Shown here piece after piece: positions 9,311 to 63,262 of a stretch of 64,000 nucleotides of DNA. The DNA is from a virus: the IMG/VR virus record IMGVR_UViG_3300035181_001013, positions 1-64,000 of that record; one strand, 5' to 3'. Every line of letters begins with the position of its first letter. The stretch's first letter is position 1. The position numbers and the translations under genes were made by a program. The notes beneath the pieces were generated by a model. That model made no database searches. It saw only the letters and a program-made list of their open reading frames with translations, and had not been told where the DNA came from.

Positions 9311-9389
9311 AGTCTCCCAGTAAAGAAGGAGTTAGAAGAATGACTCAGAAGTAAATGTTTTTGGTGTGACTGTTCTTTTATAATTTAAT

Positions 9390-9709
9390 GCCCCGATGGT
9401 GAAATTGGTAGACACAAGGGATCGCATGACGCTAGTCCCCCTCAATTGGAAACTTTGAGTAAACTATGGGTTAATTCGGGAGAGCCTTTAAAATGGCAAT
9501 CGCGAGCCAAGCAAGTGATACATCACTTGAAGGTGTAGAGACTACTGGAGAGGTTTAGTCCTCTTAATAACCAGCTTTGAACGCCCATTACCTGACCAAA
9601 TAATGTTGAAGGTAAAGAGATAGTCCGGGCTTGAAGGAAACTTCGAGACACAACCGCTTAAAATCCCTCGCTTTCGAGCGTGCCAGTTCAAATCTGGCTC
9701 GGGGCACCA
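9390..9709 (+). tRNA. tRNA-Leu (TAA) interrupted by a group I intron
   Basis: The outer parts join to GCCCCGATGGTGAAATTGG...AAGGGA(T) + TTAAAATCCCTCGC...CGGGGCACCA, nearly identical to the E. coli tRNA-Leu(UAA) frame. The long variable arm and CCA are encoded. The anticodon loop is split, so splicing is needed for a working tRNA. Confidence 0.88.
9423..9656 (+). other. Group I intron in tRNA-Leu(UAA) anticodon loop
   Basis: About 234 bp without a reading frame. P1 forms between exon AGGGAT and AGTCCCC with a U.G at the splice site. The R-like segment GTAGAGACTAC and the S-like segment AGAGATAGTCC mark the catalytic core. Boundaries are approximate: ending at the G at 9656 obeys the terminal-G rule but leaves an eight-base anticodon loop, whereas ending one base later restores seven. 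Confidence 0.8.
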
Positions 9710-38558: not shown

Positions 38559-38643
38559 CCGCAGGTGGCTTAGGTAAATTGGTACAGCCCCTATCTTCAA
38601 ACGGTAGTGCTTTTGTGGGTTCGAATCCCTCCCTGCGGACCAG
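38559..38643 (+). tRNA. tRNA-Leu (CAA)
   Basis: CCGCAGG/CCTGCGG acceptor, anticodon stem CTATC/GGTAG with loop TTCAAAC, CCA. Confidence 0.8.
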
Positions 38644-43092: not shown

Positions 43093-43590
43093 ATGCTTGA
43101 AATGAAAGATGGCTCACCAATCGAAGTTTCAATATCAAACGGCTTTAAATTAACCGAAGCACTCCCCATTGTTCGACAGTTCATGCGGGGTCGTGATTAT
43201 ATTCGCCTATACGGAACTACAGTAATTTCACTTGAAGGTGTTCAAACAGTTGTTGATGATTGTGTCGTTATGTTTGACGATTTTAATACGATGACCGGTT
43301 ATCCTGTTGGCCAAAGCTCTTTTGACAAATATGAAATTATGAACGATTCGAATGGAACAAACCCTGGAACAGCAACAAAAAGAGATACTGCGATTTATCT
43401 TTCCAAACAATTCAAAGAAGACACATTTAGGTGTTCTATTTGGAATGGTAGTGTTTTGGAAAGTATTCCAGGTGATTATCTGGTTGCAAATGTAAGCAAT
43501 GAAGACTACCGAGTTGTGAACTACCCCAATGCTAAAGCATTTGGGGCTTCCAGGCCAACGCCCAGATTTTCCTGCTTCATCATTGCATAA
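43093..43590 (+). CDS. Hypothetical protein altered by IS insertion at its stop codon
   Basis: 165 codons as it stands; the last 24 come from the insertion element. Removing 43515-44852 gives ...VSNEDYRV and an immediate TAA from the ATAAA flank, so the native protein was about 141 residues. It has EALPIVRQFMRGRDYIRLYG and DDCVVMFDDFNTMTGYPVGQ, and is unrecognised. The insertion spared nearly the whole protein and replaced only its end. Confidence 0.65.
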   Translation: MLEMKDGSPIEVSISNGFKLTEALPIVRQFMRGRDYIRLYGTTVISLEGVQTVVDDCVVMFDDFNTMTGYPVGQSSFDKYEIMNDSNGTNPGTATKRDTAIYLSKQFKEDTFRCSIWNGSVLESIPGDYLVANVSNEDYRVVNYPNAKAFGASRPTPRFSCFIIA

Positions 43591-43640
43591 CTAGATATAT
43601 CATATGCTATATCCCCATCAGAGGCAACTCCACAGGCGTA
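43498..43640 (-). ncRNA. Candidate omega RNA (TnpB guide RNA)
   Basis: By analogy with IS605-family elements the guide RNA spans the 3' end of tnpB and the right-end hairpin (CCCCAAATGCTTTAGCATTGGGG region), with the guide read from the flanking DNA just beyond 43515. The tnpB C-terminus EAPNALALG is encoded by this hairpin. Extent is inferred. Confidence 0.4.
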
Positions 43641-44852
43641 AATTCCGCTAGTTCCCAGCGTATTTAAACCAATATTCCGAATATTAATCGCAGCGTTAAT
43701 GTCTCTATCGTGTTCAGCATTGCAATCACATTTCCACTCTCTATCTTTTAGAGTCAGAGAATGATTTAATGCTCCACACGATGAGCACATTTTAGAAGAT
43801 GGAGCAAATCTAGGGATATTGACAACCAAACCACCTGTCTCTGCTAGTTTATGTTTAAGTTTTTCTTTAAACATTCTCCATCCAGCAGATTCGATTGATT
43901 TAGCCAACTTTCTGTTCTTGACCATTCCGCTAATATTCAGGTCTTCCATGCAAACAACTGAGTGATTTTTGGTTATCAAATCAACTAGTTTCCACTGGAA
44001 GTCTTTTCTTTTATTTGCTACAGATCTGTGCAACTTAGCAACAGATTTTCTTGCTTTGATTCGATTGGAAGATCCTTTAACCTTCTTAGAGAGTGATTGT
44101 TGTTTTCTCTTTAACAACCGAGAACTCTTCTCAAGGTCCTTGGGATTAGCAATCTTCTTTCCATTGCTCAACACAGCAAAATCTTTAATTCCAACATCAA
44201 TTCCGATAACTTCGGCATCAGAAAACAATGTTCTTGGTTCTACATCAGCAATCTCGCACAAAACAACTGCGTTCCACTTATCACCTACTTGTTTAAATGT
44301 AATATTTTTCGCTTTCCCCTGAAGTTTTCTATTGATTTTCCACGAAATCCATCCGATTTTAGGCAATTTTACGCCTTTATTCGATAACTTAAAACCACCA
44401 GGAACTCGAAATGAATCATTGTTTTCTGTCTTTTTCTTAAATTTAGGAAATCCAGTCTGTTTGGTTTTCCTTGCGATTTTTGCTTTGATTGATTTATCTA
44501 AATCCCTGTTTTTCTGCTGCAAAACCTGGCTATTCACCTCTTCAAGCCACGGAATCTCGGCCCTCAACTTCGTTGTCATCCGGTTCATATCGAACTGAAA
44601 ATTAAACTTCCCCTCAGCAGCATATTTGTCAATATTTGCTTTTAACATTTGGTTCCACAACCAACGAACTGATCCACCTGTCTGTTTCAGCGCGGTTTCC
44701 TGATCTGTTGTCGGATTTAATCGGAACGTGTATGCTTTATGCAAGTGGTGTTCTCCCTTTGTATAAGAGTATTTATGGGGGAAGTTAGAAGAGAGATCAA
44801 CTAATTCATCCCCGATGTTGAAGCATCTGGGGTTTTCTTAGTTGAGAGATTG
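43515..44852 (-). mobile_element. IS605-type tnpB-only insertion sequence
   Basis: 1338 bp bounded by CAATCTCTCAACTAAG (left end, at 44852) and ...GGGGTAGTTCACA (right end, at 43515). It lies next to TTTAT with no target duplication. Both ends carry hairpins. It has tnpB but no tnpA, so mobility needs a transposase from elsewhere. The mini-element at 36982 shares both ends. Confidence 0.85.
43521..44744 (-). CDS. tnpB: TnpB RNA-guided nuclease
   Basis: 407 residues. RuvC-type residues are Asp183 (GIDVGIKDFA), Glu267 (MEDLN) and Asp346/348 (EHDRDINAA). The zinc ribbon is CSSCG...CDC (320-341). N-terminal start YTFRLNPTTDQE and RWLWNQML match TnpB helix-turn-helix segments. TnpB proteins are guide-RNA-directed DNA nucleases, the ancestors of Cas12, that keep their element in place after excision. 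All catalytic residues are present, so it is probably functional. Confidence 0.92.
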   Translation of the reverse strand: MHKAYTFRLNPTTDQETALKQTGGSVRWLWNQMLKANIDKYAAEGKFNFQFDMNRMTTKLRAEIPWLEEVNSQVLQQKNRDLDKSIKAKIARKTKQTGFPKFKKKTENNDSFRVPGGFKLSNKGVKLPKIGWISWKINRKLQGKAKNITFKQVGDKWNAVVLCEIADVEPRTLFSDAEVIGIDVGIKDFAVLSNGKKIANPKDLEKSSRLLKRKQQSLSKKVKGSSNRIKARKSVAKLHRSVANKRKDFQWKLVDLITKNHSVVCMEDLNISGMVKNRKLAKSIESAGWRMFKEKLKHKLAETGGLVVNIPRFAPSSKMCSSCGALNHSLTLKDREWKCDCNAEHDRDINAAINIRNIGLNTLGTSGIYACGVASDGDIAYDISSYAMMKQENLGVGLEAPNALALG

Positions 44853-46476: not shown

Positions 46477-46526
46477 AGTCAGCGAACTCCTTGTTTATAG
46501 TAAATAAATTCAATGAGAAACATTTG

Positions 46527-46555
46527 TTGACATTATTTAAAAGAACAAGTAATAT
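46527..46555 (+). promoter_or_regulatory. sigma70-like promoter for the CTA tRNA
   Basis: TTGACA, 17 bp, TAATAT. Confidence 0.7.
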
Positions 46556-46567
46556 TAGCAAATGATT

Positions 46568-46642
46568 GCTCAATTGGCTTAATGGTAAAGCAGGTGCTTC
46601 TAAAACACTTGACCGTCGGTTCGATTCCGACATTGGGCACCG
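46568..46642 (+). tRNA. tRNA with CTA anticodon (candidate amber suppressor)
   Basis: Canonical spacing throughout: GCTCAAT, TG, GCTT-AATGGTA-AAGC, A, GGTGC-TTCTAAA-ACACT, TGACC, GTCGG-TTCGATT-CCGAC, ATTGGGC, A, CCG. Loop positions 34-36 read CTA, which would decode UAG. The C31-A39 pair is mismatched. A nine-base loop reading TCT (Arg) is less likely because it breaks the normal arm lengths. CCA is CCG. Confidence 0.6.
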
Positions 46643-46643
46643 A

Positions 46644-46812
46644 GAAGTTAGAAAAGGGTGTGGTTCAATTCCACAGGAAGGGATCCGAAGCTCTATAAAG
46701 GACCGAGCGTTTCTAACGATGATTAAAAGTGTAGTAAATTGGAGATAACATCAATGATCAGGACTGGTACGCCATTCTTTAGTGAAAAACAGACCGTCTA
46801 CACTTTTGTATT
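46644..46812 (+). ncRNA. Two-domain structured RNA
   Basis: Domain 1: GTTAGAAA pairs with TTTCTAAC and holds a T-arm-like TGTGG-TTCAATT-CCACA. Domain 2: AAAAGTGTAG pairs with CTACACTTTT. No reading frame. It is placed between two tRNAs like the RNA at 10317. Confidence 0.45.
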
Positions 46813-46815
46813 AAT

Positions 46816-46891
46816 TGCGGGGTAGAGGAGGTAGTTCATCACCGGTCTCATAAGCCGAAATAGGTCAGTGCAAGTCTGACCCCCGCTACCA
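46816..46891 (+). tRNA. tRNA-Met (CAT), initiator-like
   Basis: TGCGGGG/CCCCGCT with an unpaired first position (T1 x T72), as in initiators; anticodon loop CTCATAA, T-arm GTCAG-TGCAAGT-CTGAC, CCA. Confidence 0.7.
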
Positions 46892-46965
46892 AGATTATAT
46901 TGTTAGGCGGTCAAAGAAGGTGTTTTGTACTGAATGTGATTTTGAAGTTAGTACAAAATTAGTTG

Positions 46966-46994
46966 TTGACGATACGAAATAAAAGTAGTAAAAT
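46966..46994 (+). promoter_or_regulatory. sigma70-like promoter, first of three in the RNA block
   Basis: TTGACG, 17 bp, TAAAAT. The hairpin TTTTGTACT...AGTACAAAA lies just upstream (46922-46957 region) and may end transcription from the tRNAs. Confidence 0.75.
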
Positions 46995-47004
46995 AGACTT
47001 TGAG

Positions 47005-47125
47005 TTGTTTTTGTTGTGTTGTGCTCTCGCAAGGAGCTCACCCAGGTTGGTTTGGATTGTTCTTCGAAATCAACCAGGAGAAGGCAAGGTGGTTACATGA
47101 GGAGTAAACAATACAACAAAAATAA
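47005..47125 (+). ncRNA. About 120-nt RNA with long closing stem
   Basis: TTGTTTTTGTTGTGTTGT pairs over 18 bp with ACAATACAACAAAAATAA, enclosing GCTC-TCGCAAG-GAGC and GGTTG...CAACC. A long end-to-end stem around small internal hairpins is the general plan of Y RNAs, and a Ro-like gene lies 2 kb downstream. Promoter at 46966. Confidence 0.6.
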
Positions 47126-47137
47126 TTTAAATATCTG

Positions 47138-47166
47138 TTGACTTAATGAAGAAGTTAGTATAAAGT
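47138..47166 (+). promoter_or_regulatory. sigma70-like promoter for the giant RNA
   Basis: TTGACT, 17 bp, TAAAGT. Confidence 0.75.
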
Positions 47167-47169
47167 ATA

Positions 47170-48290
47170 CAGATAGTATTAAGAAAGTCACTCTTTTAAT
47201 TAGTTCTGTGAATTCAGAACGTTTCATCAGAAACAATTTAAAAGATAAAGAATTACGCGCTTGTGCAAAGTAACCAACAGCGATGTTGTGAAAGCGGTAG
47301 GTCCTACAACTACCGCGCCCTGTAAGGGGTACAAACAAGCAAGCCTGACCTACTCCGAAAGGAGCTGATTATCGCCAACGGTAGTCATATGAGGGAAGTT
47401 AGGGGTGTGGAAAGAACGAATGTTTACAAGCCTGCTCTGCAGGGAACTTGGGCATTTGGAGAGTAACGGGTTGTGCCGACCTCACGCCTACACAAACTAG
47501 CCATCTCAAAAGGTAAAGGGTAGTACAGTGGTCCGAACCCGCAAGTAAGGGCTGTTGTGCAAGTTGAGGGGGTTTTGGTACCTGTAATAGGGTGTCACGA
47601 TTCCTGAAAACTGGTTGAGTAGTCGGCAGATGAAAAACATGAGGAGTGTGGTATTTTTATACTCAAAAGGTATGAAATCCACTGGAAACGCACTTCTTGG
47701 TAGGTTTAACAATGTTAGGGTTAACAGCCCATATAAATTTGGATTATATTACATAAAACGCAAAGACGTTTCCAGTGTAAAGTGAAAATGGCTTAATCCT
47801 TCAGCCGCAAGGTAATGAAGGCGTCCAAAACTCGCAAGGTCGAGGATGTTGAAAGAAAGTCGCACGCAGAGAGTTAGCGCTCTTGTACAGCTCGCAAGGT
47901 TGGCGGTAGACAGATAATCGAGTAGCTTTACATGTTGGTGGAAAAGCAACCACTTAAAAAATGCAGTCATGTTGATAGACATAGTTGTGCGAAAGCTGAT
48001 TATGTGGATAAGAGAAGAACTCTAGCTGTAGCAGGTGATGAGATAATGTCTCGAAGGTATCAATAGTATAGGTTTAATCTCAACCTTATACAAAGTAAAT
48101 GCCTCGATTGAGGTGTCTGCTTTAAACAATCTGTGTAGAACCTCCCTTGTAAAAGGGGTTAGAGAGTTGGTAATGCAGATTGTTTAAAGCATACTTGTGA
48201 ACTGTCACTTTGAAAAAAGAGAGTACACGCTCTTGATAAATCGTGTCAATGGGCCAGACCATTGGGAAAAATTTTCCGATAACTGCGAAT
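47170..48290 (+). ncRNA. Giant structured non-coding RNA, about 1.1 kb
   Basis: No rightward reading frame. Many GNRA/UNCG-capped hairpins appear: CTCC-GAAA-GGAG, GCCGCAAGGT, CTC-GCAA-GG, CAGCTC-GCAA-GGTTGG, GCGCCCTGTAAGGGGTAC, and long-range pairs such as GTTTAAAGCA/TGCTTTAAAC flanking 48118-48199. Size, tetraloop density and the tRNA-linked position resemble the phage-borne GOLLD and ROOL RNA classes. I cannot confirm membership by eye. Confidence 0.65.
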
Positions 48291-48297
48291 AATATCG

Positions 48298-48326
48298 TTG
48301 ATTTTTGATTTTAATCACCGTAAAAT
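48298..48326 (+). promoter_or_regulatory. sigma70-like promoter, third in the RNA block
   Basis: TTGATT, 17 bp, TAAAAT. Confidence 0.7.
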
Positions 48327-48342
48327 GTCTTTATTGAAGTTT

Positions 48343-48494
48343 AAGACGCACACAGCAATCTTTTGACTTGAGTTGTGGAGAATCTGGGAAGTGGAGGAGA
48401 TTGCTCTTGTGAAGCTTCCCAATGGAGACTACAACAAAAACGTGCTACCGTGTTTCAATACGGTAGGTGTTGACCGAGCTTCGGTTGGCGTCTT
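48343..48494 (+). ncRNA. 152-nt structured RNA, AAGACGC/GCGTCTT family
   Basis: AAGACGC pairs with GCGTCTT at the ends. Inside are AGCAATCT/AGATTGCT, CTACCGT-GTTTCAAT-ACGGTAG and ACCGA-GCTT-CGGT, with GGGAAG...CTTCCC as an alternative pairing. Its opening AAGACGC(AC)ACAGCAA resembles two shorter elements at 48972 and 63169. Confidence 0.6.
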
Positions 48495-48518
48495 GTTAAA
48501 TTAACGAAAAGGACCAAA

Positions 48519-48740
48519 ATGACTACCAAAAAAGCAAAGAAAGATCAAGCGGTTGCAGTGATTATTGGAAAACCCAACCGGCATTTTAAGTTACCGGGAT
48601 CAATTAAGCGTATGATGGCTTCAATTGAAGATAAGCATGCACGTGATGCATACAAACGTGCTATGATTTCAGCTGAATTGACATACCAAGCAAACAAAAA
48701 GAAGCGTGTTGAACGAACTGATACTAGTAAAGACGAATAA
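48519..48740 (+). CDS. 73-aa basic protein
   Basis: MTTKKAKKDQAVAVIIGKPN, RHFKLPGSIKRMMASIEDKH and a helical ARDAYKRAMISAELTYQANK. AAAAGGACC ribosome site. It directly follows the structured RNAs and is coupled (TAATGG) to the next gene. Basic and helical, so RNA binding is possible but unsupported by a motif. Confidence 0.6.
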   Translation: MTTKKAKKDQAVAVIIGKPNRHFKLPGSIKRMMASIEDKHARDAYKRAMISAELTYQANKKKRVERTDTSKDE

Positions 48741-48964
48741 TGGATTCTCAACCAGTTATTAATTTTAACACCGTATTGGTGGAAATTTCAAAACTGGAAC
48801 TTAATCCAGGTGATGTTTTAGTCATAAAAGTTCATGACGATTCTCTATTTAAGAAGAGTAAAATAATAGAAATTTCGAACGCACTTGACAAAGCGTTGCC
48901 TAAAGACGTAAAAGCAGTTATAGTTCCACCACAATATGAATTTCAAGTTATAAGAAATCTTTAA
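48740..48964 (+). CDS. 74-aa hypothetical protein
   Basis: MDSQPVINFNTVLVEISKLE, LNPGDVLVIKVHDDSLFKKS, then DKALPKDVKAVIVPPQYEFQ. A beta-alpha-beta layout with LxPGDVLVIKV. I know similar small proteins from other phages without a role. It lies between the RNA block and the Ro-like gene. Confidence 0.6.
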   Translation: MDSQPVINFNTVLVEISKLELNPGDVLVIKVHDDSLFKKSKIIEISNALDKALPKDVKAVIVPPQYEFQVIRNL

Positions 48965-48971
48965 TAGTTTA

Positions 48972-49033
48972 AAGACACTAACAGCAATCGCATAATACAC
49001 TAGACATTTAATCTAACCAGTAAAATGTGTCTT
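48972..49033 (+). ncRNA. Short AAGACAC...GTGTCTT element upstream of Ro-like gene
   Basis: AAGACAC TAACAGCAA ... GTGTCTT closes a 62-nt element ending 5 bases before the AAAAGGAG ribosome site of the Ro-like gene. Related to 48343 and 63169. It may be a protein- or ligand-binding leader. Confidence 0.5.
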
Positions 49034-49050
49034 GATAAAAGGAGAAACAA

Positions 49051-50553
49051 GTGAGCAAAGAATTTGTGGATGCCCTTTCTATTACAACCAATGTAGCACA
49101 CACGGAAAATGGTGCTGTTGCATTTGATACAACCAAATCAGCTATGTTGGATTTGTTTGCACAGGGTGGTGCACTCCGCAATCGTGATGATGATGAAATT
49201 CTTCATTTGTTTTCAAAAGCTTATGCAGAAAATGCATTGTTAGCCACTCGTGCTATGTTCTATTTCAGGGACGCTCGTGGTGGTCAAGGTGAACGTGATA
49301 CGTTTAGAAAGCAATTAAAGTGGTTGATTAACGTTAACCCTGACGCTGTCCGTAAAAACATTAAACTTATTCCATACTTTGGACGTTGGGATGATTTGTA
49401 TGTGTTATTTGATACAGAACTTGAAACAGATGCGATTGCACTAATCTTTACACAGATTACCGAAGACGTGGCATCTGAACATCCCTCGTTGCTTGCAAAA
49501 TGGTTGAAAAGTGAAAACGCTTCTTCAAAAGAAACGAAACGACTTGCAACAAAAACTCGTAAGGGTCTTAAATTAAGATCCAAAGCATATCGCTTGATGT
49601 TGAGCACTCTTCGTAAGAAAATTAACATTGTTGAACGGTTGGTGTCTGCCAATCAGTGGGATAGTATTGAATACAGTGCCGTTCCCTCTCAAGCTAACTT
49701 GTTATATGGGAAAGCTTTTTTCGCGCACGATGCTGAACGCCGTAAGAAATTCTTGGATTCTTTAAAGACTGGCGAAAAGAAAATCAATGCGAGTGTTCTT
49801 TTTCCATATGAAATCGTCCGCAAAGCATTTACGATGGGCAGGAACACACCACAACACGAACGCCAACTCATGGATGCGTTGTGGGACGCTCTTCCAAACT
49901 ATATTGGAGATAAACAAGAAAATGCTCTTGCTGTAGTTGATGTGTCTGGTTCTATGGCTGGTCTTCCATTGGAAGTTGCCATTTCGGTTGGAATGTATTT
50001 GGCTGAACGTAACACTTGTGAAGCTTATCATAACAAGTTCATTACTTTTAGCTCTACACCTCAACTACTTAAAATTCAGGGAGCTGACCTTGTTGAAAAA
50101 ATAGCCAATATGAATAGTTCTGCATGGGAAATGAATACAGATATTCAAGCTGTGTTCCGTTTGATTCTTACTGTTGCCAAACAAAACAAGTTAGCACAAT
50201 CTGAATTACCACAGAAGTTGTATATCATTTCTGACATGGAATTTGATGCCGCTACAAGCAACGCTAGATATTCTTATGAGCATCAAGGTCGGGGTATGGT
50301 TGACGAAAAATTATTCCAAACAATTTCTAAAGAATTTGGTGAGTGTGGATATACAATGCCCAATTTGGTGTTTTGGAATGTTGATGCTCAGAACCAACAG
50401 TTTCCAATGAGTATGGATGAGCGTGGTTTTCAAATGGTTAGTGGATGTAGTCCGTCTATCTTTAAGCATACAATAGGTGGAGAATTTTTGTCTGCTTATG
50501 ATTTGATGCTTGATGTTATTAACAGTGAACGTTATCAACTCGTTACAATTTAA
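49051..50553 (+). CDS. Ro60/TROVE-related DUF2828 protein with vWA domain
   Basis: 500 residues from GTG with GGAGAAAC upstream. N-terminal helical domain includes FYFRDARGGQGERDTF (71-86) and LIPYFGRWDDLYVL, both typical of DUF2828 and TROVE repeats. The C-terminal von Willebrand A domain has the metal site DVSGSMAG (297-304), NTDIQAVF-like and SDMEFDAA blocks. Ro proteins bind misfolded RNAs and Y RNAs as rings, and in bacteria help RNA decay machines. Location beside the structured-RNA block supports an RNA role, which remains inference. Confidence 0.82.
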   Translation: MSKEFVDALSITTNVAHTENGAVAFDTTKSAMLDLFAQGGALRNRDDDEILHLFSKAYAENALLATRAMFYFRDARGGQGERDTFRKQLKWLINVNPDAVRKNIKLIPYFGRWDDLYVLFDTELETDAIALIFTQITEDVASEHPSLLAKWLKSENASSKETKRLATKTRKGLKLRSKAYRLMLSTLRKKINIVERLVSANQWDSIEYSAVPSQANLLYGKAFFAHDAERRKKFLDSLKTGEKKINASVLFPYEIVRKAFTMGRNTPQHERQLMDALWDALPNYIGDKQENALAVVDVSGSMAGLPLEVAISVGMYLAERNTCEAYHNKFITFSSTPQLLKIQGADLVEKIANMNSSAWEMNTDIQAVFRLILTVAKQNKLAQSELPQKLYIISDMEFDAATSNARYSYEHQGRGMVDEKLFQTISKEFGECGYTMPNLVFWNVDAQNQQFPMSMDERGFQMVSGCSPSIFKHTIGGEFLSAYDLMLDVINSERYQLVTI

Positions 50554-63168: not shown

Positions 63169-63223
63169 AAGACACTAACAGCAACTCAAAAACTTTCTAT
63201 GCTAATGAAACTAAACGTGTCTT
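63169..63223 (+). ncRNA. Short AAGACAC...GTGTCTT element
   Basis: AAGACACTAACAGCAA ... GTGTCTTG, 55 nt, sharing its first 16 bases with the element before the Ro-like gene (48972). It lies 40 bp ahead of the next gene. Confidence 0.5.
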
Positions 63224-63262
63224 GTTCACAAAAATAGTAACTAAAATAAGGAGGGTAGGGAA

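Follow-up and report, generated by a model that had tools for sequence, protein, structure and literature searches.

The stretch of DNA examined here (the window) comprises 64,000 nucleotides, bases 1-64000 of the 178,796-bp IMG/VR virus record IMGVR_UViG_3300035181_001013, and the element in question is a block without protein genes that precedes a gene for a Ro-like RNA-binding protein. The region 46477-49050 is the longest stretch without open reading frames (ORFs) of at least 90 aa in the entire record (178.8 kb examined). A sequence-only reading of the window had noted here a non-coding block without any rightward gene, which holds: no plausible protein gene was found on either strand from the tRNA region to the ORF at 48519. 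The longest ORF of the block has 81 aa and lies on the minus strand, and two apparently conserved minus-strand ORFs (47749-47982 and 47506-47712) were rejected as genes, as they echo the conservation of the RNA. The nearest relatives of the terminase are those of Xanthomonas phage XacN1 (50%) and Stenotrophomonas phages CM1 and RAS14 (49.5%), and for this reason the record probably represents part of an XacN1-like jumbo phage. It contains 42 tRNA genes according to ARAGORN.

The earlier observation itself was real, and the block turned out to be several things instead of one. The explanation that we favor, and hold to be probable, is that the block represents an RNA island of a jumbo phage related to XacN1 and RAS14, in which one GOLLD RNA is accompanied by Y-RNA-like partners of the Ro-like protein.

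GOLLD RNA

The middle unit had been suspected to be a giant tRNA-linked phage RNA of the GOLLD or ROOL kind. Judged by its match to Rfam, it is a GOLLD RNA and a new member of this known class: positions 47641-48086 on the plus strand, the conserved 3' domain, match the GOLLD model RF02032 across its entire length (model positions 1-416, 198.8 bits with a cut-off of 150, E 1.3e-54). The ROOL, OLE and HEARO models, suggested for the same search, gave no match in the block either at gathering score or at E <= 5. Since the Rfam model spans the 3' domain only, the region 47275-48090 was aligned with four relatives. The conserved part of the 5' domain (47275-47640, plus strand) has homologs in G001, G047, G064 and G003 and shows covariation, the homology beginning at approximately 47288 in G001/G063 and G047. 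Among the five aligned sequences 108 of the 190 consensus pairs display double-sided change, and the compensatory changes in these jumbo-phage relatives span both the 5' and the 3' domain. A 3' domain scoring above the cut-off, a separate structured and less conserved 5' domain and a phage setting with a tRNA array were thus all found. Covariation, the absence of which had been named earlier as a possible refutation, is strong in GOLLD as well as in R1 and in the R4/R5/R6 stem family described below. The full-length RNA is placed at 47173-48240 on the plus strand (about 1.07 kb), with ends estimated from the promoter and from a predicted pairing which closes the molecule at about 47177 and 48238; no terminator was recognised.

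GOLLD RNAs above the cut-off were also detected in XacN1 (two copies), RAS14/CM1, Phosso and many metagenomic phages, and none was found in PA5oct, Paride and Atu_ph07. In XacN1 the RNA (L136, AP018399.1 36561-39052) resides within a 2.5-kb unannotated stretch; its two copies, at 38570 and 357365 of the record, apparently belong to terminal repeats. The presence of tRNAs within the GOLLD linker is already known (PMC12286853). Among 119 loci, four have a tRNA in the linker (Leu, Lys, CTA and Arg; L019, L047, L072, L121), and a tRNA-like stretch was aligned in the linker of G047 (L229).

GOLLD RNAs have a 5'-cap and 3'-ring organisation, and the env-38 GOLLD assembles into a hollow 14-mer RNA cage (PMC12286853). 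The covariation of the 5' and 3' domains of the window GOLLD fits this organisation, and by analogy to env-38 it should form a similar hollow 14-mer cage. According to the passage of PMC7567579 that cites the work, GOLLD is dispensable for phage production in one Lactobacillus prophage, and therefore an essential role should not be assumed.

A stem family linked to Ro-like genes

The third unit, following the promoter at 48298, is not part of GOLLD and belongs instead with the downstream Ro-like gene (49051-50553, plus strand). The product of this gene (DUF2828 and DUF7788) matches phrog_850 'RNA-binding protein' at 455 bits, and its mycobacteriophage relatives are annotated as 'Ro-like RNA binding protein'. 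Phosso and G064 have TROVE proteins that phrog_850 matches too, and Ro-like proteins were found in 682 phage records.

The RNA of the third unit, R4 (48343-48495, plus strand), starts 17 nt past the -10 box of the 48298 promoter and is Y-RNA-like, with ends reading AAGACGC ACA CAGCAAT ... GCGTCTT G and a large branched module between them; the unit folds with z = -3.5 relative to shuffled sequences. Two short members of the same family occur on the plus strand of the record. R5 (48972-49034) ends 16 nt upstream of the start codon of the Ro-like gene, and R6 (63169-63224) is situated in a tRNA region. R5 and the upstream RNA R1 had both been missed by the sequence-only reading. R4, R5 and R6 have a common layout of a 7-bp basal stem, 3 nt, CAGCAA(U) and then the 3' strand followed by G. 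A strict rule (consensus 5' strand, N3, CAGCAA, a perfect 7-bp partner and G), in which the 5'-strand consensus is derived from a family that includes these three RNAs, returned exactly R4, R5 and R6 in the whole record (three of five candidates), and 59 anagrams returned none (0 of 16).

This layout emerged from a look at the sequences flanking Ro-like genes in phages unrelated to one another, in which the stem element adjoins the Ro-like (DUF2828) genes or sits in tRNA arrays. The carriers infect Bacillus, Mycobacterium, Listeria, Enterococcus, Staphylococcus, Vibrio, Cronobacter and E. coli; the copy in Bacillus phage BcoS-136 reads AAGACAC TAA CAGCAAT ... GTGTCTT G and that in Mycobacterium phage LeBron TGAGCGC AGA CAGCAAT ... 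GCGCTCA G. When Ro-like loci were scanned for CAGCAAT with a stem of at least 7 bp, 19 sites were counted vs. a mean of 0.5 for anagram motifs, the highest-scoring anagrams being those that overlap the CAGCAAT motif itself. Among 11 short members six of the seven stem pairs change on both sides. The members were selected by their stem, so that full pairing follows from the selection, which explains neither the compensatory changes nor the result of the anagram control.

A covariance model of the family was run on 28 records with a threshold of E <= 0.02. Matches were obtained in FADO (6), BcoS-136 (9), LeBron (2), Listeria phage LP-083-2 (3), Enterococcus phage Porthos (1), Staphylococcus phage S-CoN_Ph2 (4) and the phage studied here (2). 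Three of six held-out phages with Ro-like genes were matched as well, namely Vibrio phage PVA8 (1), Cronobacter phage GAP32 (5) and E. coli phage Felixounavirus tootiki (1). No match at this threshold was seen in ten comparison phages; seven of them, all but Paride, PA5oct and Atu_ph07, were checked for Ro-like and TROVE proteins and showed neither. The model also found nothing in the TROVE-type or R1-type carriers G064, Phosso and G075-G077 or in the GOLLD phages XacN1, RAS14, G001, G003 and G047. In GAP32 approximately 200 kb separate the Ro-like gene from the tRNA array that holds the elements, a distance in favor of trans-acting RNAs. Members in LeBron, FADO and GAP32 contain tRNA mimics, in which the T-arm and D-arm are permuted. 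The LeBron member of this kind scores 39.8 bits with Rfam YrlA, and YrlA-like matches of up to 47.8 bits adjoin the element in Porthos, all of them below the cut-off of 69.

In Listeria phage LP-083-2 a ROOL-like match (L266:2465-3016; 87.4 bits vs. a cut-off of 99.1) is followed, about 1 kb downstream, by the Ro-like gene and two R5-type elements. With this match, a second group of phages has giant cage RNAs close to Ro-like genes.

The permuted-tRNA RNA R1

R1 (46642-46723, plus strand) is a covarying RNA separate from the R4/R5/R6 family. It is Y-RNA-like, with elements in permuted-tRNA order: an end stem P1, a T-arm, a 3-bp acceptor-like hairpin and a D-arm. Its relatives are found in G064 and G075-G077, where the basal stem is completely rewritten. 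In the alignment, which consists of four rows, two of them nearly identical, and hence of three lineages, 14 of 21 pairs are changed on both sides, and the covariation reaches 0.833 vs. at most 0.175 when slid; the covariance model scores 85.7 bits. All five R1 records found encode a phrog_850 protein, and G075-G077 had been retrieved through the R1 RNA motif alone. These three have no GOLLD match. R1 therefore goes with Ro and not with GOLLD, and the idea that it is a part of GOLLD was dropped. Against Rfam YrlA, R1 gave no match at E <= 10, and one exact R1 pattern found nothing in a prokaryote genome collection.

Other permuted RNAs were encountered in the related phages. Two RNAs that are related to each other (L240, G001:37700-38000, minus strand; L241, G064:1100-1400) have the permuted-tRNA form with a closed acceptor stem, share the outer strand TGTTGTTGCGTAGTG, are not called as tRNAs across the module and are likely YrlA-type Y RNAs. 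A third (L233, G003:10858-10936, minus strand) has a T-arm, a 7-bp acceptor strand with CCA, a short loop, a second acceptor strand and a D-arm; it scores 36.9 bits with YrlA, the top of its set, and is either a permuted tRNA gene or a Y RNA. YrlA-like matches in jumbo phages that proved to be tandem tRNAs were discarded.

Other features of the island and the window

All three of the sigma70-like promoters reported earlier are present on the plus strand: TTGACG-17-TAAAAT before R3 (46966-46994), TTGACT-17-TAAAGT before GOLLD (47138-47166) and TTGATT-17-TAAAAT before R4 (48298-48326). A generic sigma-70 scan showed no local excess (20 found vs. 15.7 expected). The tighter class TTGAYN-17-TAWART, which covers all three, is enriched in the record, with 20 sites (16 on the plus and four on the minus strand) vs. 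3.5 in shuffled sequences (maximum 6).

R3 (46998-47129, plus strand) is closed by a 22-24-bp stem at its ends and folds with z = -6.0. No relatives were found with BLAST, and a covariance model made from R3 alone found, in 34 sources, only R3 and its own complement; R3 is therefore left unassigned and may be another RNA of the island. Among 50,697 phage records, the BLAST matches of R3 and R4 were at chance level only. A further candidate, R2 (46722-46810, 11-bp end stem), was not supported (z = -0.7).

The tRNA with a CTA anticodon at 46568-46641 (plus strand; ARAGORN and Rfam tRNA, 63.9 bits) is possibly an amber suppressor. Stop-codon-reading tRNAs recur near GOLLD in this phage clade (46568-46641 of the window, L134, L072, L229, L230, L136 and L143), the anticodon being CTA in the window, G001, G003, G047 and G064 and TTA in RAS14, and XacN1 having two 'tRNA-Sup'. 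The initiator-like tRNA described earlier, which would lie near 46816-46893 (plus strand), was called by neither ARAGORN nor Rfam; it is read from the sequence itself, and BLAST aligns it with stretches of other GOLLD loci (75% over 83 nt). Elsewhere in the window there are a TnpB-like (OrfB_IS605) gene at 43521-44744 (minus strand) and a group I intron at 9366-9647 (plus strand), the latter within the first tRNA region.

Interpretation and alternative explanations

In the favored explanation, GOLLD would be transcribed from its own promoter (47138) as an RNA of about 1.07 kb, and R4, R5 and R6 would be Y-RNA-like partners of the Ro-like protein. The 7-bp end stem together with the conserved CAGCAAU strand is the putative Ro-binding site, and the remaining variable part, which is branched in R4, a tRNA mimic in some relatives and minimal in R5 and R6, could serve as an effector or gate module. 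R5 may additionally control the Ro-like gene. R1 would add another Y-RNA-like RNA, one with a YrlA-like permuted-tRNA layout. In infected cells the Ro-like ring might be tethered or gated by these RNAs, in the service of RNA quality control or of the handling of tRNAs.

Several results speak against this explanation. The Ro-like protein has no TROVE match, and TROVE was not matched elsewhere in the record. R4 and R5 have no match in Rfam, R4, R5 and R6 do not exceed the YrlA cut-off, and neither a T-arm nor a D-arm was found in the module of R4. With the stem-family model R4 scores weakly (E 0.43), which is due to its long insert, and there is no clear match in the held-out Ro-like phages DLP_6, Campylobacter F358 and Synechococcus B23. 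A looser motif rule gave no excess in this record, and the case consequently rests on the strict rule and the cross-phage evidence. Expression of the island RNAs, their binding to Ro and their effector function are what we infer.

The units of the block are contiguous and on the same strand, the GOLLD ends are predicted to pair and no terminator was recognised, all of which would suit a single GOLLD locus with R3 and R4 as accessory or processing flanks of one transcript. R4 has, however, a promoter-like site of its own, and its motif recurs by Ro-like genes in phages without a GOLLD match in the scanned stretches, while it is missing from the five GOLLD phages searched, so that a single locus appears improbable. 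A better, though still rather small, chance is given to the stems of R4, R5 and R6 being cis-acting leaders instead of free Y-like RNAs, either for the control of adjacent genes by the Ro-like protein or another phage factor or for the processing of a polycistronic RNA. Such leaders are suggested by the place of R5 directly before the Ro-like gene, by elements placed likewise in the Listeria and Enterococcus phages and BcoS-136, and by the little internal structure of the short members. They are difficult to reconcile with the many copies inside tRNA arrays, with the distance in GAP32, with the tRNA mimics contained in several members and with the large, well-folded module of R4.

Finally, R1 could be a decayed tRNA or a seam between tRNA genes: it has a canonical T-arm and lies in a tRNA array, tandem tRNAs account for most of the YrlA-like matches in these phages, and several tRNA-like T-arms escape ARAGORN here. 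Yet R1 lacks CCA and a full acceptor stem, and its 82-nt permuted layout, with P1 rewritten and still paired, is kept in three lineages, which decay would not preserve; this origin is very improbable.

It seems, on balance, more likely than not that the 7-bp stem with N3 and CAGCAAU defines a widespread and undescribed family of phage Y RNAs which accompanies DUF2828 Ro-like proteins in the genomes of phages of Bacillota, Actinomycetota and Pseudomonadota. Its effector modules would be interchangeable (a tRNA mimic, a branched fold or a minimal loop), and large phages would keep it in the same islands as giant cage RNAs. The searchable literature yielded no RNA partner for phage Ro-like proteins and no description of phage Y RNAs with the CAGCAAU motif, although a report outside the searched literature is possible; as far as checked, this motif, shared by phages of very different bacteria, is undescribed. 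The motif with its variable modules, tRNA mimics included, predicts the RNA partners of phage Ro-like proteins, and laboratory phages suited to testing this prediction include Bacillus FADO, Mycobacterium LeBron and E. coli tootiki. If true, Ro/Y-RNA machines would be a recurrent tool of large phages, tied to tRNA arrays. GOLLD is known to form RNA cages, and to this class the present work adds a jumbo phage and the cultured relatives XacN1, RAS14 and Phosso.

Comparison with known RNAs

The window GOLLD shares with its class the 3' domain matching the full model above the cut-off, the conserved 5' domain, the variable linker and the tRNA-rich phage setting. It differs in having no tRNA in the linker, and it runs about 150 nt past the 3' end of the Rfam model with an extra long hairpin. 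ROOL (RF03087), which the block itself does not match, is similar in being a giant phage cage RNA near tRNAs. YrlA (RF02553) consists of an end-closed stem tethering Rsr and a tRNA-like module (PMC8394870), the latter circularly permuted relative to tRNA (PMC11472068). The RNAs of the island differ from it in that R1, R4 and R5 lack an Rfam match, R4 has another module, the stem of the R4 family carries CAGCAAU and the protein is of the DUF2828 and not of the TROVE type. What they have in common with YrlA is the end-closed basal stem, the Ro-like partner gene and, in R1 and some relatives of the stem family, the permuted T-arm/acceptor/D-arm module.
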